From assembly GCA_900095095.1 (NCBI GenBank), contig FMBT01000432.1, positions 48,046 through 112,045 of the forward strand: a DNA stretch of 64,000 bases, read 5' to 3'. The position numbers and the translations under genes are program-made. The DNA comes from Fragilariopsis cylindrus CCMP1102 (taxonomy: Eukaryota > Bacillariophyta > Bacillariophyceae > Bacillariales > Bacillariaceae). Positions 3,430 through 64,000 of the stretch are shown here, one piece after another; position 1 is the stretch's first letter; every line of letters starts with the position of its first letter. The notes beneath the pieces are model-generated. The model made no database searches, was not told where the DNA came from, and was given only the letters and a program-made list of their open reading frames with translations.

Positions 3430-3680
3430 TTTTCGATCGACTCTTTCTGAATCGAACGAACTTTATCGTTGTCTCTTTTTGAAACGTTATCGTCGTCTCT
3501 TTCTGAATCGAACGAACGTTATCGCCGTCTCTTTTTGAAACGTTATCGTCGTCTCTTTCTGAATCGAACAAACGTTATCGTCGTCTCTTTTTGAATCGAA
3601 CGAACGTTCTTTTTCTTATCGATCGACTCTTTTTGAATCGAACGAACGTTCTTTTTCTCTATGAAACGAACGTTCTTTGT
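3430..3680 (+). repeat. Irregular tandem repeat
   Basis: Alternating 24- and 32-base units are built from CTTTTTGAAACG or CTTTCTGAATCGAACGAACG followed by TTATCGTCGTCT. At least five units are visible and they decay toward the 3' end. The reverse strand is open as a low-complexity frame, which I do not regard as a gene. Confidence 0.7.
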
Positions 3681-7314: not shown

Positions 7315-7746
7315 AACTCGATATAAATTGAAAAAAAGATAATCAGCAATGAACTAAGAACACACATACACACACACACGCTCAGGCAAAGAAAAGAAGC
7401 AGATGAGAGAAAAAGTAAGAACCCTATAAAGAACAACATCACTTTTTACGTTTAAAGAACACACAGAAAAAAAAACATCATATAATAATTCAATACTATT
7501 ACTATTTTATATAAAGCGTATGTATATATTTGTATCCAGCACAATGTATACCACCAGATTGTTCTAGATTTGTTGTTGTTTCGTTGTTGATAACATACGT
7601 ATATTTTTTCAAGAAATTTGTTGGTATGCGGAACTGCTCTTGCTCTCTACTGTTCTTTTCTTCTTCTATTATCGATTAATTATGAATGGTAGAATTAGAA
7701 CAACAGAGTGGACGAAGATGATAGTTTACTTCATTTGTTGTTGTTG
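7315..7746. other. Convergent 3' flanks
   Basis: This lies between the 3' ends of the secreted repeat protein and the minus-strand glycine-zipper gene. It holds a short (CA)n run near 7365-7380 and A-rich stretches. No gene is seen. Confidence 0.6.
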
Positions 7747-10707
7747 TTATTGTGACGATACATCGTTGCCATCACCAATGCTGCTATTATTATGACTGGT
7801 ACGGGTACTGGTATTGGTATTTGCATTATCACTATTACCATTACTATTACCATCCGCTGTCGTCGTCGACGTTGTGGCAGTAGTAGTGAAGAGACCACGG
7901 GAAAAGTCCCCGAATCGGTACGATGATCTACTACCGTTATTAGTACAATTATTATTTTCTCGTGTCACACCAGCAGCAACTTCTTTTCCTTTTGCAATTA
8001 AACCACGTGAAAAGTTATTAAATCGGTATGTGTCGGGATTATTATTATCAGTGGCGGCTGCGGCGGCGATGGTATTATTATTATTATTATTATTGGAATC
8101 ATTCTCACACACATTATCATTGTTCTCACACAGTACTTCATTATTGTTTTGTTCTTGTCCGACTGCTTGTCCGACTACTACTACTTCTTCTTCTTCTCCT
8201 CCTCCTGCTTTAGTAGCACTACGTGTCGACTGAATTAATCCACGTGAAAAATCACCTATTCGGAATGAAGATGATGAATCACGGCCTGTTATTTCCTTCC
8301 CACGTGCAACAGTCTTACGTATATTATCACCAATTCTAAATGAATTATTTCTATCATTATTATTATCACCGCCAACACTCTTTTGTTGTTGTTGCTGTTC
8401 ATGTTTTTGTACAGCAACTTGACCACTCATTGAACCAACAATTGATCCTGCTAATGCACCGACCGGACCAGCAATGATCATACCTGCAGCTGCACCAGCA
8501 CTTGCACCAGCAACACCAGCAAATCGACCTTTATTTTCTGTTAAGTAATTCTTCGAATTCGAATTCGAATTCGAATTAGAGTTTGATACTGTTGAACTTG
8601 AATTTGATACTGAATCTGATGTTGATGATGATCCAATGGTAGAAGCTGTTCGTGTTGTTGAATCATCATCACCATTACCATAATCATTATCATTACTACT
8701 ACTCATACGTGAAGATTGTCGCTTTTCACGGATCGATCCAATCAAACCACGTGCAACATCACCGAACTTATATCCTCCATTGTCATGATCATTATTATTA
8801 TTTTGTGCTGCAGTAATACTAACATGATTGGATGGAATACTACCACCAGTAGAAGATGATGTTGATTCTTTTCCCCTTGCTGTATTACCACCATTTTCGA
8901 CATTTAAACTAATACGATTAGTTAAACTATCACCCCCATCGACTACTGCTGCTGCTGCTGCTGCTGGTGTTACCTCCTCTCTATTTCTATTACTATTACT
9001 GTTACTACTGTTACTTTCTTGTTGTTGATGTTGGTGTTGTTGTTGTTGCTGTAATATACGAACTTCTTTTCCTTTACGTGCAGCAGCTGATACACCATCT
9101 TTTGCTGCTAATGCTGCAATTGAAACAACTGCACCAATTGGTGATACAAATGATGAACCGGTTGCTACTAATGCACCAAAAGTTGTTATGGAATCACCCA
9201 TAGTCGATATAAATCGAGTTTTACTTGCATTTGCATTATTTGATTGACGAGTACTAGTAGTAGTACATGCAGATTTTTTACTACTATCCCTATTAGTACC
9301 ATTACCATTACTAGCACAATATGTTCGTAAGTAGTATTTAATCACATCACCTAATGTAGTATCATCATTGGATACAAATAACGATTGGGGGCAACTATCA
9401 TCACTATTGTTATCATTATTATTATCGTCTTCCCCACCACTCGTATGCTGCTGCTGGTCCTCGCCACCACTAATGCTATTATCCGATGATGATGATGATG
9501 GATCTGAATCTGGTATATTATTATGAATAGTAAGATTTAAATTAGGTACAGAAACATAGTCAAGAAGTTTCACGAATGAACGAAGTGCTGCACCAACACG
9601 AATCTTTTCATCATCACCAACAATACCACCATTGGCAAAAGATTTTATGAAACCAATATCTAAAACAGAATTAGGATTCATATTGAAATAATAACGTTGA
9701 CGTCGAAGACGACGATGGTTTGTTGTTGCGTCTACTTCTAATTTTCCTTCCTTTGATGACAGTCCAATTCCACCAATTAATGATATATTAGTCCCTTCTA
9801 ATAAATCTTCTTCGGTTAGTATGGCATCATTTTTTACATAATCATTGTTGTCATCGTCATCATCGTTTCTAGTATTGGAAGAAGAAGAAGATCCAGCAGT
9901 AGTACCAAAACCGGAAGCAGTCCATGATAGATTTGCTTTATCAATTTTCCAAAAACTTTGTATATTATTATTACTATTGTTATCTTTAGTATCTGTAGTA
10001 GACGATGACGATGACGACAATAATGTATTTCCTTCTAATGTCCATTGAAATTTAGATATATCACATACAGCAATGACTTGTTGTTGGTGTTGTTGCTGAG
10101 AAGGAAAAGAAGAAGAAGTTGAAGACGAAAGGAATTCAATCTTAATTCCATCTGAACATAAAAAACTTAGATTGCATGTTGAATATGATGTTGACGACGA
10201 ACATGAACCTCCTCCTTCTTCCACAGCAGCAGCATGTTTCTCCCAAATCCAATGTATAGAAGGATTCTTATTATTTGTGTTCCATATTGTTCGAACATTT
10301 GATGATGGTGACGATGATGGTGACGATGATGAGGAGGTATTATTGTCATCATTGAGATCAAGACGTAGTATTGTTGATCCTGAAGTAGAAGCAGAAGAAG
10401 TATCATCATCTTCGTCTTTTTCTTTAAGAATTTCTTGAATGATTTCTTCTTTTCTGTTTCGTAAACCTTCATGTACATGTTCATGTTGTTGTAAATCTGT
10501 TTGTAAAGTATCAAATAATATAGTAATTAAATTTTCAACAAGTGTACGTTTCCGTCTTTTTTCACGTTCATTGGATGTTGCAATTGCTACTAATGAAGCA
10601 AATGCACAAAAAGTAGTAGTTGATGAAGAAAAAGGTGATGACGATGCGGTACTATTATCATTATCATTATCATCATTGTCGTAATCGTCGAGGGTATAAT
10701 CTTCCAT
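7747..10707 (-). CDS. Low-complexity protein with FGDFxRGL repeats and a glycine zipper
   Basis: Single-exon frame of 986 residues, starting at an ATG followed by an acidic stretch. Ordered parts sit between Ser/Asn/Asp tracts: a basic helical segment at about 50-95, two hydrophobic Ala/Gly-rich segments (about 505-545, and a classic glycine zipper with AGASAGAAAGM near 720-745), and at least five copies of a short motif. These read YKFGDVARGLIG (about 640), FRIGDNIRKTVARGKE (about 790), FRIGDFSRGLIQ (about 815), YRFNNFSRGLIAKGKE (about 893) and YRFGDFSRGLF (about 930). A basic KGKE tail often follows the motif. Similar repeats occur, as far as I recall, in uncharacterised diatom proteins. 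Glycine zippers suggest membrane insertion or oligomerisation; that role is inference. Unlike its neighbours, the frame is intact. Confidence 0.75.
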   Translation of the reverse strand: MEDYTLDDYDNDDNDNDNSTASSSPFSSSTTTFCAFASLVAIATSNEREKRRKRTLVENLITILFDTLQTDLQQHEHVHEGLRNRKEEIIQEILKEKDEDDDTSSASTSGSTILRLDLNDDNNTSSSSSPSSSPSSNVRTIWNTNNKNPSIHWIWEKHAAAVEEGGGSCSSSTSYSTCNLSFLCSDGIKIEFLSSSTSSSFPSQQQHQQQVIAVCDISKFQWTLEGNTLLSSSSSSTTDTKDNNSNNNIQSFWKIDKANLSWTASGFGTTAGSSSSSNTRNDDDDDNNDYVKNDAILTEEDLLEGTNISLIGGIGLSSKEGKLEVDATTNHRRLRRQRYYFNMNPNSVLDIGFIKSFANGGIVGDDEKIRVGAALRSFVKLLDYVSVPNLNLTIHNNIPDSDPSSSSSDNSISGGEDQQQHTSGGEDDNNNDNNSDDSCPQSLFVSNDDTTLGDVIKYYLRTYCASNGNGTNRDSSKKSACTTTSTRQSNNANASKTRFISTMGDSITTFGALVATGSSFVSPIGAVVSIAALAAKDGVSAAARKGKEVRILQQQQQHQHQQQESNSSNSNSNRNREEVTPAAAAAAVVDGGDSLTNRISLNVENGGNTARGKESTSSSTGGSIPSNHVSITAAQNNNNDHDNGGYKFGDVARGLIGSIREKRQSSRMSSSNDNDYGNGDDDSTTRTASTIGSSSTSDSVSNSSSTVSNSNSNSNSNSKNYLTENKGRFAGVAGASAGAAAGMIIAGPVGALAGSIVGSMSGQVAVQKHEQQQQQKSVGGDNNNDRNNSFRIGDNIRKTVARGKEITGRDSSSSFRIGDFSRGLIQSTRSATKAGGGEEEEVVVVGQAVGQEQNNNEVLCENNDNVCENDSNNNNNNNTIAAAAATDNNNPDTYRFNNFSRGLIAKGKEVAAGVTRENNNCTNNGSRSSYRFGDFSRGLFTTTATTSTTTADGNSNGNSDNANTNTSTRTSHNNSSIGDGNDVSSQ

Positions 10708-37920: not shown

Positions 37921-39651
37921 ATAGATAAAACTTAAGTTTTTCTTCTCATAAAATTAGATTAAATTGAATTGGATTGAATTCTATAGGTGAATTCTATAAG
38001 TAGTTAGTCAAATACTATACAACCACTCAATTGAAATCCTTTCTATCATCTGTCATATAATGATTGATAGTGTAGGTTTAAAATTGTAGATATACAGCAA
38101 TGTACTGTGGAACAAACACACAACACAAGGTATGTGTATGTCAGGATGATGATGGGACTATAATTACTACAATATGGTACCAGAACACCCCCCCCCCCCC
38201 CCCCTCTTTTTTCCTTCCTTCCTATTCTCACTCTTCTATCAACAATGTGTGATCAGGTCACACTTACACTGCTACACTAGTCTAGTTCTTTTTCCACACA
38301 AACCATCCTGGAATCCAAGCTAGCAGTGAATGACCAACCATTCTACTAGTATTTACTACAGTTGCGGTTTGACCAATAACACACAAAAGAATATTAGAGC
38401 ATATATCAAGTAAGTTATATTTAAGTATAATATAGATTTGTCTTGCTGCTGCTTGTAATTAAAAGCAAGCAAGCAAGCCATACATTATTATGTTGTTACA
38501 TCTGTCAATTCAACCTATTTAATCATATATCATAGTACCAAATAATTTGTATCAACTTTTTGGTCTGCATCTATTATAATAGTGGCACACCTAAATTTTG
38601 CAATGTTTCAGCATCATTGAATCAAAATATGGGAGTCACCCACATCAATTGTGTACACACAAGCATTAGTGCTGGGTTCATGATATCAACACATAAGTTT
38701 CATTACATCTTGATTTGCATACCAGCACCTAATACATATAAGAATGCGCACAAAAAAGCAAAACATGGAGAGGTAGGTGTGACTCTGAATTTTTCAACTA
38801 TATATTTATATTGTTGTTGTTGCCGAATACCAGTAGGTGGTTTATATATTATGTTAGAGGCCTGAACTTGAATCCAGCTCTAGAATGAATGCTGAGGTAC
38901 ATGTACGCACGCTGGTTGGGTGGCTGGATAGAGTACTATACACATCCATCATCACATTTAACATTGCTGAATTCTGATGTAATGTAAAAAAACAGTCTTT
39001 GCATTGTTCTGGTTTGGTAGTTACAAGATAAATACTTGTCTGGTTGAGCAATTATTGTTTGTCACACTTCTTTGTGCAATTCAGTTCAGTTCAGTTCAGT
39101 ACAGTTCATATACATGATATTATGGTACTAGCTACTAGCTACTACAGTAGTACCTATTCCTCCTACATAGCTTGATGACACAGCCTGTACAATTGAAGCA
39201 CAGAAATCAATGCCTACTGTACGACTGTCCGTACATGCATCCTATATTTTGAATGGCTGTGCGTGCGTGAAACATTATAACTTGTGATGTACAGTACTGT
39301 AACTTTACTAATACGCATGGTACAGTAGGGACGAAGGAAGTATCGCAGGATCTGCGTCCATCCTTCACCCGCTTGCTTCCACAGCAGCATGATCACGAAC
39401 TGACAACGTACAATACAAGGCGACACGCATGATAGACAAAGGGAGCAAAACACAGTAGCGTTAGTACCGTACTAAATAAAATTTCCATTGTCATTCTTTT
39501 TTGACTGGTACTCTTTCTTTTAAGAATACAGTAGATACGACGATAACGATAACGACGATAACAACGTTATAACAACGACGATAAACATAAGAACAACTAA
39601 TCTACTAATTTACTAAATTTTAAACGCAAAAAAACGCAAGAATATAATATA
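37921..39651. other. Long intergenic region
   Basis: Holds a run of 17 C at 38188-38204 followed by T/C-rich sequence, AAGC repeats near 38465-38478, an AGTTC repeat near 39080-39100, and many TACAGTA/TACTGTA words (39100-39330). Frames such as 38560-38865 have no motif. No gene is accepted. Confidence 0.5.
38188..38204 (+). repeat. Poly-C homopolymer
   Basis: Seventeen consecutive C in an otherwise AT-rich intergenic region. It could form a G-rich structure on the minus strand and is a likely site of length error. Confidence 0.9.
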
Positions 39652-42600
39652 ATGTCATCATCATGGGCGCAAAAAAAAGCTAAGGCAGCCGATTTTGCCT
39701 TTGAAAAAGAATTACAAACACGTGAAGATTCTGAAATTGATTCCTCGAAACTGACCAGTTTAGGTGCCATGGGTGGTGGTGATGATGAAATATATGAAAA
39801 GAAATTATCCAAAGACGAAAAGAAAGCGGTAGCCAAAGCAAAACGTGATGCCAAGAAGGCTGCTAAGAAAAAAGCTAAAGGTGGTGGTGATGACGATGAA
39901 GACGAAGATGAAGATATTAATGCTAAAATGGATGTTTTGAATGTTGATGGGGACCAAACATCCGGTATGAATAAAAAAGATGATGGTATTGATCATGAAG
40001 CCACGGAATTATTAGCAGCCGAAGGTACAGTGGTGACCTATGCATTAAATAGAAAAGGTGTTGATGCACGTGCACGTGATATTAATGTAGAAAATGTCAC
40101 ATTGCAACATTTTGGTGGTATCCTACTCGATGAAACCAATGTGGTCTTAAATCATGGTAATCGGTATGGTTTGATTGGTTTAAATGGTAGTGGTAAATCG
40201 ACATTTTTAAAAGCATTAGGGAGTCGGGCATTACCAATACCAAATAGTATTGATATTTTCTTTTTAAAAGAAGAAATTGAAACCATCGGATACAGTCACA
40301 GCATTAGAAGCGGTAATGTCGGGTCGATGATGAACGATTAAAATTAGAAGCCAGAGCGGGAAGAATTAAATGATTTAATGTCCGATGTATTAGATAATCC
40401 TGATAAATATACACAAGATGATACTGCGGAGGGAGGTGAGGCTGCGGAAGACTGTAGAAGAAATACAAGAAGATATTATTGAAGCTTTGAATAGTGTCTA
40501 TGAAACGATTAGATGATTTAGATGCTGATACCGCTGAAATGCGTGCCCGATCGATATTACAAGGATTAGGATTTTCACATGAAATGCAATCGAAAGTAAC
40601 AAAAGATTTTTCCGGTGGATGGCGAATGCGTGTTTCTTTAGCAAGAGCATTATTTATACAACCTGTTTGGTACGTACATAGTTGTTTCGTTTTTCGTTTT
40701 GTTTTTGTTCGTTGCTTTTTCGTCATTATTTCTCACTCACTCACTCACTCACTCACTCACTCTTTCAAACACACACACACAACGACCCCTTCCGAAAAAA
40801 TTTCTACACACAGTTTATTATTAGATGAACCCACAAATCATTTAGATATGGAAGCGGTGATTTGGTTAGAAAATTATTTAAGTAAATGGGAACGTATTTT
40901 ACTGTTAGTGAGTCATTCACAAGATTTTTTAAATAATGTTTGTTCTCATATGATACATTTAGATTCGACGAAAAAAAAATTAGAATATTATAATGGTAAT
41001 TATGATACCTTCGTAAAAACGAAAGAGGATGATATGATTAATCAATTGAAAAAATATAAATGGGAACAAGAACAAATTAAAAGTATGAAAGAATATGTAA
41101 GTTATAAGTTATAAGTTTACATTGGTATTGTATTGCATCTTTATTTTGGACACGTACATACACACGCACTAATTCTTTTCCTTCTTCTTATTCGATTTAC
41201 TACCCTCTCACTACACTCCTTCTCTTAACATTCACAACAACATTCACAACGAAATAAAATAAAATATATCTATAGATTGCTATTAATCAATCTAAAAATT
41301 CAAAAAAGCTGAATCGAAACGAAAAGTATTACAAAAAATGGAACGTTCTGGATTAACACAAAAACCAGACTGAAAAAGGTTTAAATTTTAAATTTGAAGA
41401 TCCTGGTCATTTACCACCACCAGTATTAGCATTTCATGATGTATCGTTTGGTTATCCAGGATGTGAACCATTATATGATAATGTTAATTTTGGTGTCGAC
41501 TTAGATAGTAGAATTGCATTAGTCGGTCCTAATGGTGCAGGAAAGACGACATTAGTTAAGGTACGTATACGTACATATACATTACGTATATACGTAGAAG
41601 GAATGGAACCTGAAAAAAAAATCGTCTGTTGTTATTCGTGCTCTGCTTCCGCTACTGCTGCTTCTTCTTCTTCTTATGTGGCGGTATACCATACCATATT
41701 ATAGTAGTAGTAGAAGCAGCAGCAGCGGTATAGAGTGGTGAACTCTTTTATTGTACGATTAAAAATTAAAAATTAGTATTCTCACGCTTTTTTGATTGCT
41801 TAACTACTACCCCAACCAAATGTTTGCATTGAACAGCTCATGGCGAGTGAACTCATTGCAACTTCTGGGGATATTCGACCTCACGGTCATCTCAAGTTGG
41901 GTAGATTTACACAACATTTTGTAAGTATAACATTCTACTCAATACTGTGTGAGATACGAAATGCATTGGATATGATAAGATATGATTTGATGTTTCCGTA
42001 CCCACTCTCATATTTTCTTTGTTTCCAACCGACCCCATTCAATTTTTATGTGCCGTCGTTCTAACTATCACTACTACTACCACTATACTGTTCTTACCAC
42101 ACTTATTATGACGCAGGTGGATGTATTAAATCTAGAACAAACTCCACTCGAGTTCTTTGAAACTTTATACCCAACTGATCCACTTATTGAACAACGCAAG
42201 TACCTTGGACGATTTGGTATCAGTGGTAAAATGCAGGTTCGTAGAATGAGTGAGCTTTCAGATGGACAGAAGAGTCGCGTTGTGTTAGCTAAGCTTGGTA
42301 GAGACGTGCCACACATTCTTTTACTAGATGAACCAACGAATCATTTAGGTGAGTTGAAAAAATTGGTATACATTTTGAAGGTCTATAACAAAAGTGTCAT
42401 TCAAGTTTTGTATCGCAGTAATTTTTATGTATTGTTGTTTGCTTACACAAATTACAACCTTCTAATGTTCTTCTTCTTCTTCTTCTTCTTCTTCTTCTTC
42501 TTCTTTAGATATGGAATCGATTGATGCTTTAGCAAAAGCTGTTAATGAATATAGTGGAGGGCTTGTTCTAGTATCACACGACATGAGATTGATCTCACAG

Positions 42601-43220
42601 GTCGCTAACGAAATTTGGATTTGTGATAAAAAGAAAATCACGAAGTATAAGGGTGATATTGTAAGTATCTCTCTTATCTGCACATGTTCTTCCTTCTATT
42701 TCTTCCTCATGAGTATCGCTAATCACATTTTTGCCTCATTGTTCTTCTGTTACAGATGAATTTCAAAATGGACCTCAGAAAAGCGCAGGGTATCGGTAAT
42801 GAGAATATTAAGCTACAAGGAGACGCATCGGTGAAGGCCACCGATAAGGCTAAGAAACTTAAGGTGAAGAAGCCCGAACCCAAATTGGAAGTCATTCAAC
42901 CAAAGGCTGTTTCAGCACCAGCTATTACGACTATTAGTGAAGAAATTGAAGAGAAACCAAAGGTTACGGTGCCATCGTCCACGCCACCGCTGTCTTCTAT
43001 TTTGAAGCCTTTAGCCTCGGACGATGCCACCGTTGCGACTATGGAGACATCAGGATCTTCTTCGACTGCTGGTAATAGTACAGGAATTGCTAGTACCATC
43101 ACCACCAGCGAACCTTCAACAGCTGCAGCTCCTGCAAAGAAAAAATACATTCCAATTCATTTGCGTAGAAAAATGGCTGCAGAGGCAGCGGCTGCGGAAG
43201 AAGCAGCAAAATCAAAATAA
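39652..43220 (+). CDS. ABCF2: ABCF2/ARB1-type ribosome-associated ABC ATPase (seven exons)
   Basis: Soluble ABC-F protein with two nucleotide-binding domains and no membrane segment; yeast Arb1 and human ABCF2 act in ribosome biogenesis and translation. Likely introns are 40670-40813, 41097-41275, 41561-41836, 41921-42116, 42349-42508 and 42661-42755, all GT-AG. NBD1 has Walker [10 protein letters not shown] (about 40190), signature [15 protein letters not shown] and Walker [15 protein letters not shown]2 has [23 protein letters not shown] and [11 protein letters not shown]. Linker motifs [12 protein letters not shown] and [10 protein letters not shown] match ABCF2. The N-terminus is Lys/Ala/Asp-rich; the C-terminus is extended and Ala/Lys-rich ([13 protein letters not shown]). 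Between about 40285 and 40505 at least four single-base breaks interrupt exon 1, and two more occur near 41310 and 41372. Homology continues throughout, so I treat the gene as real. Confidence 0.9.
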
Positions 43221-44729
43221 AAACATCACTCTTACATTTTAGTGTGCTGTAGTGAACGTGAACTAGCTATTGATAGTAGTTTGTTGTGGAATTCAAAAAA
43301 AATATAGTTACAAATTAAGAGTAAACACGAATACCATATTACACATTTCTACTCAGTTTTGCATGAGTTTCTTTGTTAATACGAACCAAATAGCTGCGAT
43401 TGACATACTGGAATACTGTAGGAGATAATTGCGTAGAAGTAAGACTGTTTATACTGTTGCCACTGGACATCCCAAGTAGTAACTAGTACTAGTAACTACT
43501 AGTCCGCTCTTGAATGTCGCTCTCACTCATCGTTTCGATCATCTATTCGATGTTGGATTCGAGTGATGCATTTGCTTACTATGACCAGTTGCAATGGTAT
43601 TTGCTTTCGCTCTGAAGCTTTCAATTCCGTTTTTTTTATGTCGCTCCAACATATCGTACCAATCATTTCTGTTATATGTTGGGAACGAGTGATGCGTTTC
43701 CGTTCTCATTGATCAAGAGACAAAACAATAAATTTTGGTCTGAACACTTTTTGTGTTTGCCTCTCTAACCGATCGTATCAATCATCTTTGATATGATTGA
43801 TGTTTGTGCATTATCTAATTAGTTTTGCTTTAGCGTACTGGTGTTTGTATTTGTGTCCGCTCAGAAGCTTTTAATGGAATGTATGATGGACAAGTGGTGA
43901 ATGTGTGCAACCTAACTGCAGCAGATCAGCACCAACATTTTTGATGATGTAGGTGTATAGCGAGACCAGGTAGAATTGATGGCGTCGGTGCAGGTTGTGT
44001 AGGAGTGGCAACGCCCGGTATAGACAAGGAGTTGGTGTTGGTGCAGCTTCTTCGAGACAGCGTACAGCAGCTATGAAGTAGAAGAAGAATATGTGTTGAA
44101 GCAAGCAACAAAAATAGTGATGATAGCTATACTAAAATTCATAATTGTTGGATTGATGGATTTTAGGTGGTTTGAGATTAATGAGATTGTTATTACTAGT
44201 CTTCTCCTCGATCTCGACTTGTAGACGACAATAAAATGGCACTTGTCTATGCCTTATCATCGGCTGGTCTCAACGCCTTTCTTTGGCGTGACGTGAGACT
44301 CTGGGGAAGATTAGCGGACAATAAATATTTAAAAATAACGCAATGATGTGGACTTCGCGGGCACTCCATAAAATCTTTTCCCGCGTGATTGGAGATGATT
44401 GATTGATTCTACCATTTCTTTCTTTTTCTTTCGTTGTGCTTCGAGAATGCGAAATAATCATTAGCACATCAACAATGACAACTTTTATTATTACGATACA
44501 ATCATTCAAATGAATCTAAGATTATCATACCTTCCGTTCCATTGCATCCACTCATTAAACCTAAGGTACAGCACCTAGTCTTAATTTATCAGAACTTCTA
44601 CCAGTTACCTAGCTGATACGTTCAATAGCTAGCATTTATTTTGACGCACAATCATCACATTACTATTACACGACGATAATAAGGAATTGTCATTGCAATA
44701 TTTTGCCAACGAAGCAGTTACCAAATAGA
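43221..44729. other. Long intergenic region
   Basis: Lies between the ABCF gene and the MYB-HSF gene. It contains a TAACTAGTACTAGTAACTACTAG palindromic cluster near 43480-43503 and repeated TCTGAAGCTTT/CAGAAGCTTT words (43610, 43863). Short frames at 43870-44110 lack motifs. No gene is accepted. Confidence 0.5.
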
Positions 44730-44963
44730 ATGGAAAAAGTAACACGTTGGATTACAGGATTATTGCCAAGAAATAATGCAGGAAAATTAGAGACAACTTT
44801 GAATATTTCTAGTAGCAGTAATATCTCTAGTCGTAATAGAACAATCGGAAATAATAATAATTATGCTATTAACAATTGTATTAACGAGGGATCATCATCA
44901 TCATCATCATCATCACCATCATCACCATCATCACCATCATCACCATCATCACCATCATCACCC

Positions 44964-45001
<38 letters not shown>

Positions 45002-48000
45002 TTCTTCTTCTGATCAGGTCAAGGTAAAAAGAAGTGATGGTGATTCATCAAATAGAAATATCGAAGGTCGAGAAATCGACACAAGCATGATAACTACAAA
45101 AGAAATTATCTTGGAACAAATATGCAGTTTAGGGACAGCAGGTCAAAACGAAAATTTGACTACTACGTCTATGTCAGATTCATCTTCAGAGCATACTGAA
45201 AACAAAAGTATGGTAATTGACGAACACGATAGGAAACCAGCAGCAAGCAATCGGCTAGGACGCACACAACAAGAAGAAGAACTTACTACTACTAAAGAAA
45301 TTAATTTGGAACGTAGTACTTCAGGTATTGGTCAAGACGCAAATTGACTACTAGATCGAATTTTTCGTCAGAAGCAAGTGAGGATACTGAAGACAAAAAC
45401 ATCATCGAAAAAGAAAAACTGCCATCATCAAACGATCGCCGTGGGTGCAAAGAAGAAGAACTGTCGGAATCAATACAATTGTGCTACAACATCAACAACA
45501 ACAACAACAACAACAACAGCAGCAGCAACAACAAACGTCAAAAAATAACGTACGCGATTGTACAGGAGGAGCATCAGAATAAATTAGCAGAGCATCAAAA
45601 ACGTAAGGATGATGTGAATAAGTTCAGCTCCGTTCGAGAGGTTGAAGTAGGAGTCGAATCGTGCATGCGATGTGGATTTATTCTTCCTAGTGTCCAAACG
45701 GGAAGCGATATATGCACTAAAACGGGTTGGTGTCAGAGTTGCGCTCGCATACCGCCTCACGTTAGTGGGAATATGCTAAGAGAATTTCAGGACTTATTAG
45801 AGAAACCAACAGTACGGAATCGCCAACAATATGAAGAAGAAGAAGAATTGTTGGAAACAAATACAAGCATCAGCAACACAAACAAACGTCAAAAAATATC
45901 TTCGGTGATTGTACATCGTTGGCAAAAGGTCTTGAAGCCATCCTTGGTAAAGGGTCCATGGACAGCTGAGGAAGATCGCAAGGTGGTTGAGCTTGTGAAG
46001 AAGCATGGAGCAAAATGGTCCTTGATTGCAACTAATCTTCCGGGAAGAATCGGAAAGCAATGTCGTGAACGCTGGCATAATCATCTAAACCCGGACATTT
46101 CAAAAGAGGCATGGAAAGAAGATGAGGACAGAACAATATTGGAATCCCATATAACACTTGGTAATCGATGGACTGAGATTGCAAAGATGTTGCCAGGACG
46201 GTACGTAAAAACTCTCCTGTCTCTTTAATTTAATTGTGTTTTCCTATAATTCTCCAAAATCAATCATAATCCAAAACTCGTCACTTACTAAAACTCTTTT
46301 GACCATGATATATATTTGGATACAACAGAACGGATAACGCCATAAAAAATCATTGGAATTCATCTATGCGAAGAAAGATTGAAAAGTTTCTAGCCAGGAA
46401 ACAAGGTGTAGATGAGACCAATATCCATTACACTGAAGACGGACGATTCGATTTCATGGGTGATTTGGAAGGTGTCCTTAATGCAGTTCGGGGGAGAGAT
46501 AGTACTGGGAAAAAAATGAGTAAAGCTGATCGTAGTACGGCAAAGAAGGGTAGTACCGCCAAGAAAAACCAACAAGAACAGAAGCACGAAAAAATAGCAC
46601 TAGATTTCGAAGATAAAGCTACTGATACGTGCACCACCAACATTTTACTACCAAAGTTATTGAGACAAATCTATACGGATGAATTCGATTTGACGATGAA
46701 TCAAGTTGAAGACAAGGAAATTGAACTGAATGAGCAACAAGTCGTTATGATTAGAAAAGTAGTCAAAGATGCATTTTCGAATATGAGAGTAGAGACCTTA
46801 GAGAAGATCAGTGGCTTGACGGACGAGAAAATTTCAAGTTTCATTCTTCGTAAGTAAACTTACACTAGCTCTTTCATCGATTTGCATCTTCCCTTACTAA
46901 TTCTAATCCTTTTTTGTTTCCTTTGAATAATTGTTCTACTGTTTCTTTAATTATGATTTGTACCAATAGAGACCTATAACATGGTGGACACATGTGATCC
47001 AACTATTTGCTGTTGGTCTGAAGACGGAACACATTTTATTGTGAAGGACACTAAGAAATTCGAAACTGAAATAATTCCTCAATATTTCAGAACCTTTAAA
47101 ATACAATCGTTTCTGAAGTATGAACGACAACTACAATCGTTTTTTTTAACATCTACAGAATCACTCCCGAAATCAACCACCTATAGATTCCGTAGATTTT
47201 ACCATCCAAACTTTCAAAGTGGGAGATTGGATCTATTAAAGGAAATCAAGCCACGAAAGAGAGACGCTAGATTTTCTGATGAAAACATCAGCGCAAGTAC
47301 AGATAAAAAAAAAGTTAATAAGACCGGAATATGCACTTCTACGATGTGCAAAGATAGCATCGATGTCGACCAAAAATCTAAATTGTCCGTTTCCACTAGT
47401 AGTGAAAAGTCTCGGATTGGTAAATCAGCATCAAAAATTAGTAGCAGCAATGATATCAAAAGTAAAACGACAAGCTCAGAAATCTGTGCCAACACATCCT
47501 TCTTGGCCGACGCGGAAATTCCAATTTTTATTCGAAGTAAGTAGATTTGATCATTTTTTTTAATGCTGAATTTCACATACTCTCTCTAATATGAATCTTG
47601 TTTTCTTTGGATGATTGAATTTTATGGTATTCTTTCTTTCGTTACCTGAAATAAACATATCGACGACTTTGATTTTTTACAATAATAATCCCAATAAAGA
47701 GACGTATCACATGATCAATACATGTGATGATCCATGTGTTTGTTCTTGGTCTATTAACGGAACTTATTTTGCCGTAATGAACGAGTCGAAATTCGAAGAA
47801 GAAATTATTCCCCAATTTTTCAAAGGTAACAAGTTTGCATCATTTGTACGTCAATTGAATTATTATGGATTCCATAAGAAAAGGAATAGTGAAATTAGTA
47901 TTCGGATCGATGCTGCAACTGCTAATTACTGTGAATTTTATCATCCAAAATTCAAGCAGGGACGAACGGATTTATTAAAGGATGTAAAGCGTCTTAATCA

Positions 48001-48598
48001 ACGACTAAATGCTTCAAGCAGCGATATAGATACAGATACAGATACGATGACCTACATCGAGGAGCCCAATGAGAATGATATTCTTCTAGGTAGAGGAGGA
48101 AAGAACAACCAATGGACTGGTAACGACAGGCTTCGAACTATGGCACAGCGTCGTTGTATCGAGTATGGAACAGCACAAAAGAGGGCAAAGTCCGGTAATA
48201 TCACGAGAATTAGTTCAAGGTGTACAGAATCTGGATCCTCCAGGACGATTTTACGTGAATGTTCGAACACAAAGGGATCGGTACGATGGGAGGTTGCAAC
48301 GGACAAGGTTGCAAGAGAGAAGACATCGCAAGTACTTCGAGATGCAAATGAAGTTACCAAGAGTACTTTGGTCGATGATGAAGACAAATACAATGATGAT
48401 CAAGTACAAAACAACATTATCAGTACTACTGTTACACCGATCAACCGTCATCCTCCTTCTCCTTCTCATATTTTACAAAGCAACATTGAATGTAGAATTC
48501 TTGACAACGATTCCTGTGATAATAAAGCAGGAGTTTCCGGGGAGTATTATGATAGTGACTGTAACAGTACCGACAGTGACAGTGATTTAGTCTTTTGA
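44730..48598 (+). CDS. R2R3-MYB / HSF / HSF / LGRGG-domain fusion transcription factor
   Basis: Four exons: 44730-46200, 46329-46849, 46970-47536 and 47700-48598; about 1,152 residues. The start is the first ATG, as the open frame upstream begins with TTG. A Ser/Pro tract and two diverged internal repeats (LTT..S....SE.TE..K) come first. One missing base near 45340 is needed between those repeats. A Cys cluster (CMRCG, CTKTGWCQSC) lies around 312-345. R2R3-MYB spans about 408-515: KGPWTAEEDR, GRIGKQCRERW, SKEAWKEDED, then GRTDNAIKNHW across intron 1. HSF domain 1 begins at exon 3 (QTYNMVDT, FYHPNFQSGRLDLLKEI) and HSF domain 2 at exon 4 (FIRKTYHMINT, FASFVRQLNYYGFHKK, FYHPKFKQGRTDLLKDV). The tail has NDILLGRGGKNN and KVAREKTSQVLRDA, a stramenopile domain I believe is DUF6824. 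Splice sites are canonical and rebuild both HSF starts exactly. Likely a nuclear regulator. Confidence 0.85.
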
Positions 48599-49106
48599 GA
48601 AAAAAATTGGGAAACGATCGTTGTATGTGGGGTGGGGGGGGGCAACAATATTCTTTCTTCAAATTGTAGTAGTGGTGATAATGCATATATCGGGAGGGGG
48701 TGGGGTGGAGGGTCGGATGACTGTAATACTACGCCAAAACCACAAGAGAATACTAATAATATAGGAATTTCGCTGGTTCAATAATGTATCATGAATATGT
48801 TATATATATAATACCCTTCGATAAATGAAATAGTCTTACAAAATATATACACAGTGATACAATACACCGAAAACCAAATTGTATAGAATGATGCATCAAT
48901 GGTTTACTATACTATATATTCGTTTTTCTTTTTTCGTATAGCAACATTCATTTTAATAAATGTTCCTTTTACTGTAATTGTTTTCTACTATATTGCATTT
49001 TATTATTCTTGTTATTTGTTCAATTACTCCTATTCCTACTTCGAAGTTTTCTTTTGTTTCATAACAGGGAGTTTTCAAATTATACTGAATCCTCCTGTTC
49101 ATTCAT
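48599..49106. other. 3' flank of the fusion gene with G-rich runs
   Basis: Contains GGGGTGGGGGGGG at about 48629-48641 and a perfect four-run quadruplex motif (GGGAGGGGGTGGGGTGGAGG plus G) at 48692-48712, both on the coding strand just after the stop. The remainder is AT-rich. No gene is seen. Confidence 0.6.
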
Positions 49107-49635
49107 TCATTCTGAATTGTATCGTAATTTAATACGTTCATAGGTTGAACCAAAGGATACACCAATACCAGTTGCAACCGATGCTGCTCTACGTCCATTA
49201 CCACTCCGTAAAAATATCACACCAAACAATCCACCAGCAACAGCACCAACTGCAGTTTTAATTAATGCTGTTGTTTTGTTTTTGTCGTTACATTTGTGTC
49301 AGAAAAGAACAAGATGAAAGGAGATTATTTAGTCATAATTAGAAGAATGAATTCAAAAAAAATCAAATTATTTAAATCAATCATGTTTCATTTAAATTAC
49401 AATAAATTTATTACTACATACCTTGTTCAATATCATCTTCAATTCCATTTGGTAAAGTCCAGGATGACGACGACGTGGACGACAATGTCGTAGTATTAGT
49501 CGGCGACGATGGCGACGGTGTCGTATTAATAGTGGTTGTTGTGGCGACGGCAGGAACAGATGTTGTTGTTGACGATTCACTACTATTATTATTGTGTTCT
49601 TGTTCTTGTGATGACGATGACGATGACGATGACAT
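49107..49635 (-). CDS. MIC10: Mic10-like subunit of the MICOS complex (two exons)
   Basis: Small inner-mitochondrial-membrane protein that shapes crista junctions. Exon 1 is 49635-49422 and exon 2 is 49267-49107; the intron starts GTATGT and ends CAACAG, rebuilding an Ala codon. The 124-residue product has a long Ser/Thr-rich N-terminus, then IKTAVGAVAGGLFGVIFLR and ASVATGIGVSFGSTYERIK. These are two hydrophobic segments with Gly-repeat motifs joined by a short basic loop (RSGNGRR). This is the hairpin layout of Mic10, whose Gly motifs drive oligomerisation. The N-terminus is longer than usual. An in-frame upstream ATG at 49671 would add 12 residues. The exon 2 frame is too short to be found by simple ORF calling. 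Confidence 0.75.
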
Positions 49636-50804
49636 GCTTTTTCGTTTCGTTATTTTTATAAATGAAATCAAGCAAGGTTCGTTTCAGAAGGAAGCAATAG
49701 AGAGAAAGGAAAGTCAAGGGAAATAATAGAGAGATGAAGATAAGAAGATCGTTTCTATGATGTGATTGTTGAGTCGTCTAGCTATGGCTAAGAAGCTGTG
49801 TGTGTGTTGTGTGTTTTGTTTGTATTGATTCTCTGTTGTCAATGAATAAAAACTTAAACTCTATTGTAATGAAAGATATTCTTTGGTACGTCCAAAAACA
49901 GCTAATTTAGTCCCAAATCCCTAAAAAGTCCCCTCCCCCAAATTGAATACTTGAAGTTAATCAAGATTTATTTCGAAAAAGGACCTAACGACATCAACGC
50001 GTTTAAAACTTATCGTGGTGACTGCCTTACGTTTTATTTAAAATAAAATTTCAAAAAAAAAATGCAGTTTCATGTACAGTAAAAGGATGGCTTGACTTGC
50101 TCGTAAAATCAATCAATCATCATAATTGACGAATGAATCATTTTTTAATGCATCAGCATGCTCCGAACAAATAAATTTTCTTGTGTGTTTATCTTCTTTC
50201 ACATCAACCCCATCAATCACGCACCATCCCTGTAATGTCTCACCTCACATCTTCTACCGTACCGTACAAGCAAGCACATCAGGGAAACCGCCTCGAGTTA
50301 GCTACAGTATTACTATAATCAAGTACAGCACCCTCCATTAATAGCTAGTTAGGAGACTCGACTCGATAGCTACTTGGCTCGACACTTCTCGATTCATTTC
50401 ATCAAATCATATCAAATCAAAACGTCGGTATTCGTCTTCGCGTCTTCATCCTTCACTTTTGATTAAGAATCACAGCACACAAACTAAACACTCTCCCCCT
50501 ACAGTGCAGTATCTTCTGTTGACCACAAATCACACCCAACCCACCCACCCATCCCTCGTACTGTACTTCACATTCCGTTTGAATTCAAAGCCAAATTCAA
50601 ATTCAATTTAATTTACATTACGATTCAAATCAATTGCTTCCTTACTTCTTGACTTGACTTTGACTTCAGGCGGGGGTTGCAAAGAACTATCATCGACGGG
50701 ACGGGACGACGACAGGACGAAGGTAGAAGGTACACTACAGGTACCGTATTCTACAATTTATCTCACAAAAACAAAAAAGAAGGACGAGTTAAAAAATCAA
50801 ATTA
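49636..50804. other. Divergent promoter region
   Basis: Lies between the Mic10-like gene (minus) and the kinase gene (plus). It contains CTACCGTACCGTACAAG (about 50253), ATGTACAGTAAAA (about 50074), CTACAGTATTAC (about 50302) and CGTACTGTACTTC (about 50557). No gene is seen. Confidence 0.5.
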
Positions 50805-53565
50805 ATGATGATGGCAGATCATCTTTATTCGAAAAGAAGAAAACGAATCTGTTGTGATGATGGACAACAACGACAATCTCGACGACGACAACGGACGCAT
50901 CATCATTATCCGTTGATGGGATCATCATCCCCCTTCGTACTGTTGCTGATACTAATACTGACACTACTAATATCAATGACATACAATAGCAGCAGCAGCA
51001 CCATAGAAGCCTTGATCGGTGGTCGACATCATCTTCCGACAACAAATAGAAAATTACCTCAACAGCAACAGCCGCCTAAACCATCAGTCGGTATATCATC
51101 ATCATCATCATCGTCATTATTTAAATTGTATGCTAATACTCCACGACGGACACGTAGAATTGATGAAATATTATTTGGTGATGATGATGATGATGATAAT
51201 AATAATAATAATGATCCAAATGTTGATGATGATGAATGTGATGTATCATCTTATAATGATTTAACAATGTCCGTCAATTCATTACAATCGACATTAGCTG
51301 CCGAACAACAAAAAGCCTCGACATTAGCAGTGAAATTAGCAAATGCGGAATCTGTGATTGCCGAACAAAAGAAACGATTAGAAACGAAGAAAAAATCATT
51401 AGCGATCAAAGATCAAAAATTAAAAGAATTGGAACAAAAATTTAATGCTTCCTTTAATACGAATAATAGTAAAAATCAACCAATACGACCACCCCGGCCA
51501 CCCTCTTTGCCTGTCAACAAGAATACAGTAACAGCAGCAACAACAACAAAGAAAACAACCACAATTTTTCCACCTGTACCATGGCAATATCCACCATTAA
51601 CATCCAAAGAAAGACAATATCCATTAATATCCTATTGGTCAATTAATACAAATTCCGATGAAATTACTGGTACTGTGACATGTCATCCATCTATACCAGA
51701 TGGTACCACTATTGTAACATCATCGTTAAAATGGGGTCTTACTGATACAAATCCTGATGATACAAAAAGTAAAATTTTGAATGAAAATTATAATGTTATA
51801 TATAAACAAGAAGGTGCACCAGCAACTGTTGTAACAACACAATCCGGATCCAAATATCAATTAGGTGAAAAAAAGATACAACAGCAGTCACAACAGCCAC
51901 AGTCACAGTTTGGACAGCAGTCACAGTCACAGCCATCTTCTCAACAACAACAACAACAACAACCACCACCACCACAACCACAACCAGTACATCCATCCAA
52001 TAAATTATATCCAAATTTAGAATATAAATTAACTGGACAATCCATATCCAATGGATTTGGGACCAAATATTTATTAGCGGGTATACCAAAACGGAAACCA
52101 TCTGGACGATGTGAAATTATTATGGCCTATAAAGCGGATGAACAATCACGTCCCATTCTGAATACTGGAAGTAATAGTAACGGTAGTGGTGATGTATATA
52201 TTGTAAAATTAAGTAAACTTAAGGAAAAACTAGAGAGAGAATATAATAATTATTGTCGTGTACAAGAAAATAATCAACAACCATCACAACAAACTAACAA
52301 TGATGTAACAAACAACAACAGCAATGATTGGATGGGTGGTATGACAAACATGTTATTTGGTGACAACAACAATAACGGCAGTAGTAATTCAAATTCAAAT
52401 AGTTCTCCATTTGTAAAATGTTACGATTTTTTACCAGTATGTGAAGGATCAATTATATATGCACAACATTCGGCATTAATATTAGAAAAAGGATATGAAG
52501 ATTTACGTGATTATGAATATAAATTACAAACACAAACTCAAAATCAAAATGGACAGGATCAAAATCAAAATGACCTAACAAATGCAAATGCAAAGATGCA
52601 GCTAGATGGTATAATGAATCCAATATTAGTACAAGCATCATTATTAAGTGCCGCAAAGTGTTTAGATATATTACATAATAAAGCACGTCTTGTCTATACT
52701 GATTTAAAAGCTGAAAATTTAATTTTTATGTCATCCAATGATCAACAACTTAGTAATGCTAATATTAATATTAAAGGTATTGATTTAGAAAGTTGTATAT
52801 CAGTAAAAGGTCATCCATTAGATTATACACCGGAAGCATGTCCACCAGAATTTGCTATTAAACATTTAAATGGACAAGCATATGATTTTACATTAGAGTA
52901 TAGTTATGATATATGGGTAAGTAAATAGTTTTGGTTTTAGTTTCAGTTGTTCTTTTCTAGCAATGTGAATCAAAACTTGACTAACAGTGAATCTCTCTCT
53001 TCTCCTCCGTGTCCCTATCTTTCTCTCTTTCTCTTTCTCTCTTATTCATCGATCGATCTATCGATCGTCGTATCTACCTATCATTTTTATTGGTATCTAT
53101 CATACCACACCACACCACTCACTATCACCTTCACCAATACAGTCTTTTGGTATGTTAGCATATGAATTAGCAACTGGACGTGCATACTTTAAAGGTAAAA
53201 CACCACCACAAATAATGAAAATATTAGGACGTTCATCAACAGAAGGTGGATTTCAACCACCATTATCAGCTATGACAAATATTAATGCTGGTAATGGTAA
53301 TTATAATAATGACAATGAAGCAATAATAATACAAGATAAACATTTAATCGATCTGATACGTTCATGTCTTCAAGTTGATCCAAGATATCGTATTAATGTA
53401 AATCAAATATTACGTCATTCCTATTTTAAACAACAATTACGTTTGAGTCAAAATCAAGGTCAACAACGTCCAATTCAACAACAACAACAACAACCATTAC
53501 AATCACCACCACAATCACCACAGCAGCAACAACAACCAGGTGGTGATGGTGGTACATTCTGGTAG
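50805..53565 (+). CDS. Membrane-anchored divergent protein kinase (two exons)
   Basis: Exon 1 is 50805-52916 and exon 2 is 53143-53565; the intron is GTAAGT to ACAG; 844 residues. Three consecutive ATGs open the frame; the first is used. A basic N-terminus and a hydrophobic segment (about 42-62) suggest a signal anchor or a cleaved targeting peptide. A coiled coil lies at about 160-215. The C-terminal third has a kinase fold: KCLDILHNKARLVYTDLKAEN (catalytic loop, with Tyr-Thr-Asp in place of His-Arg-Asp), KGIDLESC (position of Asp-Phe-Gly; Asp kept), YTPEACPPEF (APE-like) and YDIWSFGMLAYELATGR spanning the intron. A clear Gly-rich loop and VAIK Lys were not found. Activity is therefore uncertain. 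Long Gln/Asn/Pro inserts break up the domain, and a Gln/Pro tail ends it. Confidence 0.75.
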
Positions 53566-61262: not shown

Positions 61263-61704
61263 TGAGGAAGAGGAAAAATAAAGAAGAAAATAGAGACATA
61301 TCAACTATCTATGATGGCGTATAATGTGTGTTATAGATGGAATGAAATATGACCGCTACGATACTACGAGCTACTAGCATGTGCTGCTATAATACAACAT
61401 AATATAACATAATATATAGAATCTATCACTCTATTTTCACTATCTTAGACCCGAGGCTATGGATATAGTTTTCAGTCTCAAGAAGATGTATCGAAGCGAA
61501 GGAAGTAAACTCCAACCATAGCCTGCCGTTCGGACGTGCAATGCTGGCGAGAAAGTATGTATGAAGGTCAAGCTGGCGGACGGCTTCTATGAAGTGGTGC
61601 TGATTGATCGTAGTGTTGTATTGTATCTATTATTCTACAGCATTTTATTCTTACTAATGCCGGAATTTCAAATGGTATCTTCCAATTAATTATCTTTAAT
61701 TATC
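61263..61704. other. Convergent 3' flanks
   Basis: Includes a GC-richer piece at about 61446-61605 whose plus strand reads KKMYRSEG and KVCMKVKLADGFYEVVL in different frames. This could be a relic of coding sequence, but I cannot assign it. Nothing else is seen. Confidence 0.3.
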
Positions 61705-62400
61705 TTATACGGAATCGAGAATCTGACCTCGCTTCGTTTCAAATTCTCCTGTGGTCAAGCTGTATTTCATTTTGTCTAACTCTGCCAGCCGTTCCGCAGG
61801 CGAAGAAGCGTGAGCAGTGGAATCAGCAACACAAATTGCATCTGCCTGTGCCATGGGAATTTCTGTATTGTGATTATTATTGCCGGTGTTGTTGTTGTTG
61901 TTGTTGTTGGGCACATTGTTGCCAGTATTGTTAATGGACACCGCGATGTATTGGGTTGTGTAGGAATTATTGCGCCCACCACGGTATCGTTCAAAACGGA
62001 CATGGAAGCTCAACTGAGGGTGACAGTGGGAAATGCTCTGGCAAATCTGTTGCATTTTCGCCTTGACTGCACACATCACACAAAAATAGCAAGCAAAGGA
62101 TATGAATACCACCACCATCATTACAGCTGGCAGGACAAAAATTGGAGTGTCCTCTAGGCCCATGGATAAAAAGCCAGAGAGCATGACACCAAGAAATATG
62201 ATTAAGGTAACACCAAAAATACCAATGGAAATAGTCTTGGCAGTGTTTGCTGGCTCAAGTGCCGCGTCTATCTTGCTGCAAAACTTCTCCCATTCACGGT
62301 CCTGCAAGTAAGGCTGTAGGATGGCTGGTTTTGTTTGGTCAATACTACCAGCGCTGCCACAACATATGCCACTTGTTAACTCTATTCTTGCGGATGACAT
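61705..62400 (-). CDS. Two-pass membrane protein with SHOCT-like C-terminus
   Basis: Single exon, 231 residues. Residues 1-50 are soluble (LQDREWEKFCSKIDAALEP). Two hydrophobic segments follow at about 55-78 (ISIGIFGVTLIIFLGVMLSG) and 85-110 (VLPAVMMVVVFISFACYFC). A soluble part has LSFHVRFERYRGG, a poly-Asn tract and an end reading AERLAELDKMKYSLTTGEFE then TKRGQILD, which fits the short SHOCT helical motif found at many protein termini. Gene context gives no further clue; the neighbour at 62898 is divergent. Function unknown; the frame is intact. Confidence 0.7.
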   Translation of the reverse strand: MSSARIELTSGICCGSAGSIDQTKPAILQPYLQDREWEKFCSKIDAALEPANTAKTISIGIFGVTLIIFLGVMLSGFLSMGLEDTPIFVLPAVMMVVVFISFACYFCVMCAVKAKMQQICQSISHCHPQLSFHVRFERYRGGRNNSYTTQYIAVSINNTGNNVPNNNNNNNTGNNNHNTEIPMAQADAICVADSTAHASSPAERLAELDKMKYSLTTGEFETKRGQILDSV

Positions 62401-62897
62401 GTTTGTCTAGTTGCTTTGGGTGTCTTTTGTTCTTGTGTTGTGTTGTGTTGTGTTCGTTGTCTTTTGTTTTTGTCTGCCACGTTTTAGTAGAAAATTAAAA
62501 ATTTCGTTTTTTAATGGCCTTATATATATCAACAAAGAAATTGGCAAAAATGGCCTTTTTTAATTAGGGAGAGGCCAATACGAATATTTTACGATGAATA
62601 AATCAATTGAGTAGGAAAAATGCAAATCAAATAATAATGAACTACAGTGCCGTAGGTATGTACGTAGTAGCATAGTGCTGTCCCTTTATCTTTTACTTTT
62701 ATTTCTTTTCATTTGGCCTATTTTACTGTAAATAACCCACACGTCGTACCGGTAACATCATTAATTTTGAACATTATTCTATACAGTGTTATAGCCTTAC
62801 TACAGCATTAACAGCACTTACAAATTATATAGTGATACAGTATTGTATTGGAGTATAAATATAAGAATAAAACAGAAAGCAAAAGCAAAAAGAAAGG
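62401..62897. promoter_or_regulatory. Divergent promoter region with TATA-like box
   Basis: Lies between two divergent genes. GAGTATAAATATAAG at about 62851-62865 is a TATA-like sequence 33-47 bases before the ATG at 62898, followed by a purine-rich AAAGCAAAAGCAAAAAGAAAGG leader. TACAGTATTG (62838) and TTACTGTAAATAAC (62723) are further TACNGTA words. A (TGTGT)n run lies at about 62436-62450. Confidence 0.45.
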
Positions 62898-63728
62898 ATG
62901 AAATCTTCTATCGCTGATATTATCGCCAGAGTAGCATTGTTGTTACTGTTATCACTATCATCATCTTCTACTGCGATCGTCGTCGTTGATGGCGCTAATA
63001 CTGATGATGGTAGTGGTAAAACATGTGCTTGTGAAGCACAACGACTAAGTTTTAATATTGATTGTTCAAATCAAGATGCCATGTTAGCAGCAGTTGGTGT
63101 ATTAGAAATCAATGATTGTTCATCGCCATCATCATCATCATCATCTTCTTCTTCTTCAGTATGCAATTCTAATCCAGATTGTGTAAAGAATTTTCTAATT
63201 ATTCAATCTCATCATGATTTTTGTTATCATGAAGAAGTACCAGAAACAATTGAACGTGTTATACATATTTATGAGGAATCATGTACAAATCATTGTTTAA
63301 TTAATCCAAAATTTGATTTGGATGCAAGGAAATGTCCACCCGTTGATTGTACAATGGATGTGGTGGTGTTGATGATGCGTATCAAACAATTGTAAATGAT
63401 TCAAATTGTTTATCAGATTGTTCAAGCACAGATTGTGCTAGTAGTTTTCGTCGTATTAAAGCAGTGCATGATAAATGTCCAAAAGATACATTAAGTTGGA
63501 CTATTGAGGTTGCATATCATGATTATGATGAAATTTGTGATGAATTCGGTTGTAATATTGCTGAATCAGGTGAAGCTGCTGATGAACTTATTTGTAATGA
63601 GCCAATTACGAATACAGCTGCTAATGGTATTCATCATCGTCCGTCTTCGTCGTTGTTGTCAACTACTTTCTATACAGCCTCTTTTTGTGGGCGTGACCGC
63701 CGCTATGTTATTATCTCTGGTTTACTAG
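62898..63728 (+). CDS. Secreted Cys-rich protein with repeated HHD-type domain (frame-broken)
   Basis: Signal peptide at residues 1-33 (IADIIARVALLLLLSLSSSS). Repeat 1 contains KTCACEAQRLSFNIDC, DCVKNFLIIQSHHDFC, VPETIERVIHIYEESC and RKCPPVDC. After a single-base break near 63345 the next frame gives a second, related repeat: NGCGGVDDAYQTI, CLSDCSSTDC, FRRIKAVHDKC and HDYDEIC. Paired Cys and His-His-Asp/His-Asp residues recur at matching places. That suggests disulfide-bonded domains and possibly metal binding (inference). Near 63680 a run of five T may hide another break; the alternative frame ends in a hydrophobic segment (VGVTAAMLLSLVY) and stop at 63728, otherwise the frame runs to 63772. 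I recall similar domains in diatom surface proteins but cannot name the family. Confidence 0.6.
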
Positions 63729-64000
63729 TGGGTAATAGCGTGTATAGAAAGCTGCAAGTATTTATACGTTAAAATAAACAGTAGTAGTGTGGTTCGATCT
63801 CAGGAAACTGAAAAAAGCTCGACATCAATTTACAGTATTTTTATTGAAGTCAAAATGCTAGTTTATTTTATTATTTGTGAGATTTAGCCATTTTTGTGTT
63901 ATAAAAGCTACGGTAGTACTTACTCGTACAATAAGTATGGTAGGTCCGAAGCAAAAATGTAACTTGGTCCATGGTACTTGTACGTTACGGTCACGACGAA
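63729..64000. other. 3' flank to window end
   Basis: AT-rich with TACGGTAGTAC (about 63911) and TACTTGTACGTTACGG near the end. No gene is seen in this part. Confidence 0.4.

Follow-up and report, generated by a model that had tools for sequence, protein, structure and literature searches.

The locus described here lies in a 64,000-nucleotide stretch of the Fragilariopsis cylindrus genome (the window, whose own positions are used unless a contig is named), which is carried by contig C513 of a 67.9 Mb assembly of 818 contigs. A gene on the + strand runs from an ATG at 44730 to a TGA at 48596-48598. Its parts are given below, together with their state in a second copy of the region on contig C343 and in the MYB gene that probably served as donor of the middle segment.

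44730 to 45344 (+): N-terminal reading frame from the ATG at 44730, Ser/Pro-rich, 205 aa up to a TGA at 45345-45347
45325 to 45371 (+): candidate 47-nt GT-AG stretch whose splicing would restore the frame; unproved, and open in C343
45343 to 45344 (+): frame break, with one base fewer than the C343 copy, which stays open
45517 to 45564 (+): first copy of a 48-nt direct repeat, whose partner (45868-45915) ends at the insertion point
45623 to 45788 (+): Cys-rich motif segment, present in the window and C343 copies
45916 to 46570 (+): MYB segment, a probable insertion, absent from C343, with TACA microhomology at 45912-45915
45950 to 46087 (+): MYB repeat R2, which has one residue fewer than its donor counterpart
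46103 to 46200 (+): first part of MYB repeat R3, which resumes at 46329
46201 to 46328 (+): intron (GTACGT..CAG), apparently brought in from the donor
46329 to 46849 (+): exon with the end of R3, a putatively donor-derived linker to 46570 and then host sequence to the FIL/Q splice
46850 to 46969 (+): intron, identical in C343
46970 to 47536 (+): exon with the first HSF domain (HSF-1, match 46969-47253), divergent and without a canonical recognition helix
47537 to 47699 (+): intron, common to the window and C343
47700 to 48598 (+): exon with the second HSF domain (HSF-2, match 47699-47992; SFVRQLNYYGF present), DUF6824 and a tail
48013 to 48347 (+): DUF6824 segment, frame-shifted between 48192 and 48248, 95% identical to C451 149450-149784

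A small gene on the - strand, possibly Mic10-like by its motif, lies near the locus at 49100-49640. Rfam gave no matches in the window.

The spliced product was compared with Pfam. Myb_DNA-binding was matched in two stretches (116.7 bits), which corresponds to an R2R3 unit, HSF_DNA-bind was matched in two stretches (147.1 bits against a cut-off of 22), and DUF6824 was matched with 51.3 bits against a cut-off of 27, its middle being out of frame between 48192 and 48248. The MYB unit has the conserved W residues and the HNHLNP and TDNAIKNHW motifs of R2R3 proteins, with R2 one residue short and an A to T change in R3. Unlike 3R-MYB genes, the fusion gene contains only the end of R1 (HRWQKVLKP). 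The four linked domains proposed in an earlier note on this DNA were therefore all found by Pfam, but the reading frame that links them is discontinuous, and the Cys-rich segment at 45623-45788, which precedes the MYB repeats, was missing from that note's list of parts.

The three phase-matched GT-AG introns that had been proposed (46201-46328, 46850-46969 and 47537-47699) do join the frames. Likewise, the claim that the FIRKTY motif is completed only after splicing was confirmed and holds for all three splices, each of which completes a domain motif (LPGR/TDNAIKNHW, FIL/QTYNMV and FIR/KTYHMI, the slash marking the splice). Stand-alone MYB and HSF genes were ruled out, given that these motifs are complete only across the introns and that the same HSF exon borders occur in C343. 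Because the splice phases fit, the motifs run across the introns and C343 has the same introns and the same HSF-HSF-DUF6824 order, the predicted structure supports reading the MYB-HSF-HSF-DUF6824 locus as one gene, with the reservation that the upstream frame is broken in the window.

The pairing of MYB with HSF had been called unusual, and this was borne out both in the assembly and among the protein matches listed. Genome totals were 128 HSF and 114 MYB matches, and the window is the sole place in the assembly where a MYB and an HSF match share a strand and are separated by less than 4 kb; on C158 and C679 the distances between same-strand matches of the two kinds are 4.2 kb and 4.9-5.1 kb. 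Protein searches covered proteins of 0.55-1.75 times the query length, so that MYB-HSF proteins of other lengths could escape. Within this range the MYB family was absent from all 19 protein matches to the HSF part (proteins of similar length), and PF00447 was absent among the best 120 of 6082 protein matches to the MYB part. The nearest protein matches that were named came largely from diatoms. The MYB+HSF combination is not named in the titles and abstract openings of literature on diatom HSF and MYB domain combinations, and no mention of DUF6824 was found in the literature searched. Excerpts of PMC4222949 name no MYB+HSF pair, and the combinations of diatom transcription factor domains given in excerpts of PMC4827209 are bHLH-PAS, bZIP-LOV, HSF-PAS and homeobox-PAS.

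HSF and DUF6824 matches of equal open-frame length, apparently within a single open frame, occur close together on C155, C648, C300 and C337, and two to four HSF domains lie close together at C311, C701, C55, C509 and C265, so that these two combinations are ordinary in this genome. For DUF6824 itself at least 150 matches were counted, from a scoring of 150 of the 319 candidates.

Synteny between the window and the fetched stretches of C343 extends, with gaps, from 27,237 to 64,000, single blocks being 81.5-98.5% identical. Genome DNA searches with several window stretches gave no third copy of the region. C343 is probably the other haplotype, and divergent haplotypes offer the simplest reading of the pair; alternatively, C513 and C343 may be paralogous segments (a segmental duplicate) and not haplotypes. 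The block at 61695-64000 is 98.5% identical to C343 in the contig's last 2.3 kb, as against 81.5-95% in the other blocks. A tail of ~215 nt flanks DUF6824 on both sides in C343 (L009, reverse strand, 7268-7482 and ~7805-8020); it occurs once in the window, in a form that has 97% identity with the first of the two in C343.

The C343 gene is without exactly the MYB piece and has kept the empty site. The window exceeds C343 by a net 647 nt, made up of 519 coding and 128 intron nucleotides, so that both gene forms are in frame. When the MYB stretch was searched as DNA against its own genome, three matches were returned, namely itself, C215 (28442-29103) and C299 (60249-60912), the latter two being 98% identical to it over 659 nt with the intron included. 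These two donor copies are 99.5% identical to each other over 7 kb. The donor gene has three Pfam MYB repeats, and its R1 is common to the 11 MYB proteins aligned with it. Donor-like proteins are found in several diatoms among the matches listed (best 120 of 6082).

At the left of the aligned junctions host and donor have TACA (4 nt) in common and at the right a single C (1 nt), 7-8 nt of the host target were lost, and there is neither a target duplication nor poly(A). In the window the host direct repeat stops where the insertion starts, whereas in C343 its likeness continues for ~12 nt through the empty site, a short continuation. Changes private to the insert comprise five substitutions (three silent, one replacement and one in the intron) and two deletions, one of 3 nt in frame and one of 2 nt in the intron; the replacement alters a nearly invariant Ala of R3. 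An alignment of 664 columns shows 5 and 9 mismatches between the insert and the two donor copies, whereas the host gene differs by 5.3-5.4% between the window and C343, so that the insertion probably postdates the separation of the window and C343 copies.

An HSF-type gene copy thus very probably received a ~655-nt genomic MYB piece recently and in frame, presumably by templated insertion. The piece begins in the end of R1 and carries R2, R3, the intron of R3 and part of the downstream linker; it would have arisen as a patch at a double-strand break, and the donor intron would still be spliced. The origin of the MYB piece appears well supported. A retrotransposed MYB was ruled out, as the insert contains the donor intron and shows neither poly(A) nor a target duplication. 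The earlier note had read the locus as a single gene joining these domains; the predicted structure supports this, but the MYB part seems to have entered one of the two copies recently.

The direction from donor to HSF gene follows from the host repeat that continues in C343 and from the truncated R1. The 647-nt difference by itself lacks direction, and the fusion could in principle be ancestral, with C343 having lost the MYB part by deletion and the three-repeat MYB gene being the receiver. We hold this to be highly improbable, given that the segment starts inside R1 while the donor and the aligned MYB proteins of other organisms have all three repeats, and that the C343 site has 7-8 bases continuing the host repeat, which a deletion would not restore. 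The insertion is known from one assembled contig (C513), and that contig has probable consensus errors, both of which would fit an assembly chimera in which a donor segment was misjoined into the HSF contig. Such an artefact would, however, need two in-frame false joins with microhomology and target loss, and it would leave the differences of the insert from both donors (the five private substitutions and the 3-nt in-frame and 2-nt intron deletions) to be accounted for; it is very unlikely.

Besides the probable MYB insertion, the gene contains two segments with close copies elsewhere in the genome, both of which are also in C343. The Cys-rich segment (45623-45788) has 90% DNA identity to the 3' part of a 2R-MYB ORF on C803 and 91% to C60, and its motif is in frame with MYB on C803 and without a single open frame on C60. 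Weak matches to the Cys motif also adjoin MYB repeats on C287 and C139, which suggests, short of proof, that the motif came from a MYB gene. In the C60 MYB gene (L043, reverse strand, 3200-3500) the Cys-motif part is spread over two frames, in contrast to the open reading of its near-identical counterpart on C803. The DUF6824 segment (48013-48347) is 95% identical to a C451 ORF that is open through the domain and 83% identical to C324 over a shorter part. Given that both older segments have close copies elsewhere, the gene was seemingly enlarged step by step, each time taking in a fragment of another regulator gene, a direction of transfer that for the Cys motif and DUF6824 we infer.

Three control stretches, a small number, yielded no captured coding segment of this kind. 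Control 51000-53000 matched C343 and gave 40 matches of at most ~100 nt, which were not viewed singly, and control 39600-43300 matched C343 and gave one 71% match of 185 nt. In the third (C278:169999-173999) a 588-aa HSF ORF matched only other HSF domains (69-72%), and two stretches 5' of this ORF had relatives elsewhere (71-87%). A dispersed repeat with more than 20 matches (70-87% identity) is located on the 5' side of the same ORF at C278:~173,200-173,640. A general capture of coding segments genome-wide was set aside, as it was unseen in the three controls.

The two HSF domains differ in condition. HSF-2 matches, over its own length, the HSF2 DNA-binding domains of solved structures (E 1.2e-21), and the SFVRQLN-YGF motif is present in its recognition helix. 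HSF-1 matches solved HSF structures weakly (E 3.1e-9); its recognition helix has a three-residue insertion and has lost Asn and Gly, aligning as SFL+KYE+RQLQSFF, and its predicted fold is of low confidence (mean pLDDT 60.1). Judged by this alignment, HSF-1 is degenerate and lacks the canonical SFVRQLN-YGF recognition helix. A trimerisation coiled coil after the DNA-binding domain is a feature of HSFs. None was seen after the HSF domains here by eye, whereas 14 aligned HSF relatives (of 19) give the consensus LKSEV..LKERI in the coiled-coil region.

Ratios of dN/dS between the window and C343 were calculated by NG86 from small counts, and the point estimates were 0.45 for the N-terminus, 0.50 for the Cys stretch, 0.41 for the linker, 0.25 for the HSF-1 domain, 0.71 for the HSF linker, 1.37 for HSF-2, 0.26 for the first half of the DUF and 0.80 for its second half together with the tail. 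Constraint on the gene is, by these estimates, mild and uneven along its length.

The frame from the ATG at 44730 meets its TGA (45345-45347) upstream of the MYB domain, whose ORF lies in another frame (45317-46200). The C343 copy has one extra base at the 45343-45344 site, and its frame, which starts at the same ATG, stays open across the Cys motif. Since C343 has one more base and reads through, the frame break amounts to a 1-nt difference, unless the 47-nt stretch at 45325-45371 is spliced as an intron. This stretch has GT-AG ends and a T-rich 3' end, and after its excision 1136 aa could be read without a stop; in C343, however, the stretch is open as it stands, and it sits in a coding repeat (NENLTTTS / DANLTTRS, by-eye reading), and the other introns of the gene measure 120-163 nt. 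Restoration of the frame through splicing is therefore unlikely, and the 1-nt difference at 45343 may be either genuine or an error of the consensus. An 840-aa reading with MYB, HSF-1, HSF-2 and an altered DUF6824 starts at an internal ATG (45665), and this product would remain possible if the upstream break were real.

Further downstream, DUF6824 has two indels relative to C343 (+1 at 48192 and -1 at 48248) that garble ~20 residues, and the domain scores 51.3 bits in the window, 82.4 in C343 and 79.1 in the C451 ORF. The window contig has probable indel errors near the insertion, and the indels in the fusion gene may be consensus errors or real decay. In the neighbouring ABCF-type gene, five single-base gains occur within 224 nt (40280-40503, +), and the C343 copy is open; these breaks may be local consensus errors or marks of a decaying copy.

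Should the indels at 45343, 48192 and 48248 be real, they may mark the window copy as an allele that is dead or dying, with the MYB insertion as neutral debris, a possibility that concerns function and is compatible with an origin by templated insertion. It is favoured by three single-base indels at places where C343 stays open, by the adjoining ABCF gene on the same contig being broken five times, by the HSF-2 dN/dS of 1.37 between copies, and by the state of the inserted MYB, in which the lone replacement hits the nearly invariant Ala of R3 and R2 is missing one residue. On the other hand, all five ABCF breaks are single-base gains that resemble consensus errors, the two indels in DUF6824 (+1/-1) offset each other, the coding frame of the inserted MYB has stayed intact through three silent changes, one replacement, one intron change and a 3-nt deletion, and dN/dS in the HSF-1 domain is 0.25. 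We regard decay of the window copy as a serious possibility that falls somewhat short of probable.

If translated, the product would combine an R2R3 unit that likely binds MYB-type sites with one canonical and one degenerate HSF domain, and a working dual-specificity factor could possibly result from the fusion. The earlier note inferred that such a factor could read composite promoters; against an established factor of that kind stand a MYB part that is recent in one copy, a broken frame, and damage to HSF-1 and DUF6824. The motifs of R2, R3 and HSF-2 remain canonical, the splice sites and phases fit, and of the four coding substitutions that the insert has acquired three are silent (binomial ~0.05 on the assumption of 75% replacements among changes), all of which would suit a working MYB-HSF factor of double specificity. 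Such a factor is nevertheless doubtful, as the gene is young and present in one of two copies with its upstream frame broken, HSF-1 is degenerate, the HSF-2 dN/dS is 1.37, and no coiled coil like that of the aligned diatom HSFs is visible. The fusion looks young and is at most a candidate double-action regulator.

On the donor and junction evidence the locus is read as a young chimeric gene formed by domain capture. Most domain fusions are known by inference from cases that are old and blurred. At this locus the donor, the empty site, the junctions and the direction are visible in one genome, and the gain of a second DNA-binding domain by a regulator becomes directly testable, that is, whether the gene is spliced, translated, DNA-binding and selected. 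The locus may also bear on the mixing of the large HSF and DUF6824 families in such algae. In the most far-reaching form, which we offer as a rather unlikely conjecture, the HSF gene would be a domain-capture hotspot that took up the Cys motif, DUF6824 and R2R3-MYB successively and in frame through short templated insertions, the newest and haplotype-polymorphic of these yielding the first MYB-HSF transcription factor of double specificity to be expressed and maintained.

The gene can be compared with several known systems. According to excerpts of PMC4827209, the HSF family is expanded in diatoms and makes up 34.2% of the transcription factors of P. tricornutum. The present gene resembles that family in its HSF DNA-binding domain, and multi-HSF loci and HSF+DUF6824 frames occur elsewhere in the same genome; it differs in its MYB segment, in one degenerate HSF domain and in a coiled coil that was not seen by eye. 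With the three-repeat (c-Myb-like) donor gene it shares R2, R3, the intron and a stretch of the linker at 98% identity, whereas the fusion has none of the donor's N-terminus, only the end of its R1 and little of its C-terminal region. In the antibodies that contain LAIR1 or LILRB1 (PMC11200687), a domain of one gene is likewise inserted in another to give a chimeric protein; these are described as arising in B cell clones, whereas the present case is found in an assembled algal genome. The insertion also resembles the class 2 templated sequence insertion polymorphisms of the human genome, which excerpts of PMC5110952 describe as patches from a distant locus with an intact donor, microhomology and microdeletion and without target duplication or poly(A). 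The microhomology (TACA and C), the loss of 7-8 nt, the donor still being present and the lack of duplication and poly(A) place the diatom junctions alongside that class, as far as those excerpts characterise it. Reverse-transcribed RNA is favoured there as the source of the patches, and for the diatom patch DNA and unspliced RNA are both possible. The class 2 insertions so described are polymorphic in the population, while two copies in one assembly are compared here, and the diatom patch is unlike them in carrying a DNA-binding domain and an intron, in frame, inside another regulator gene.
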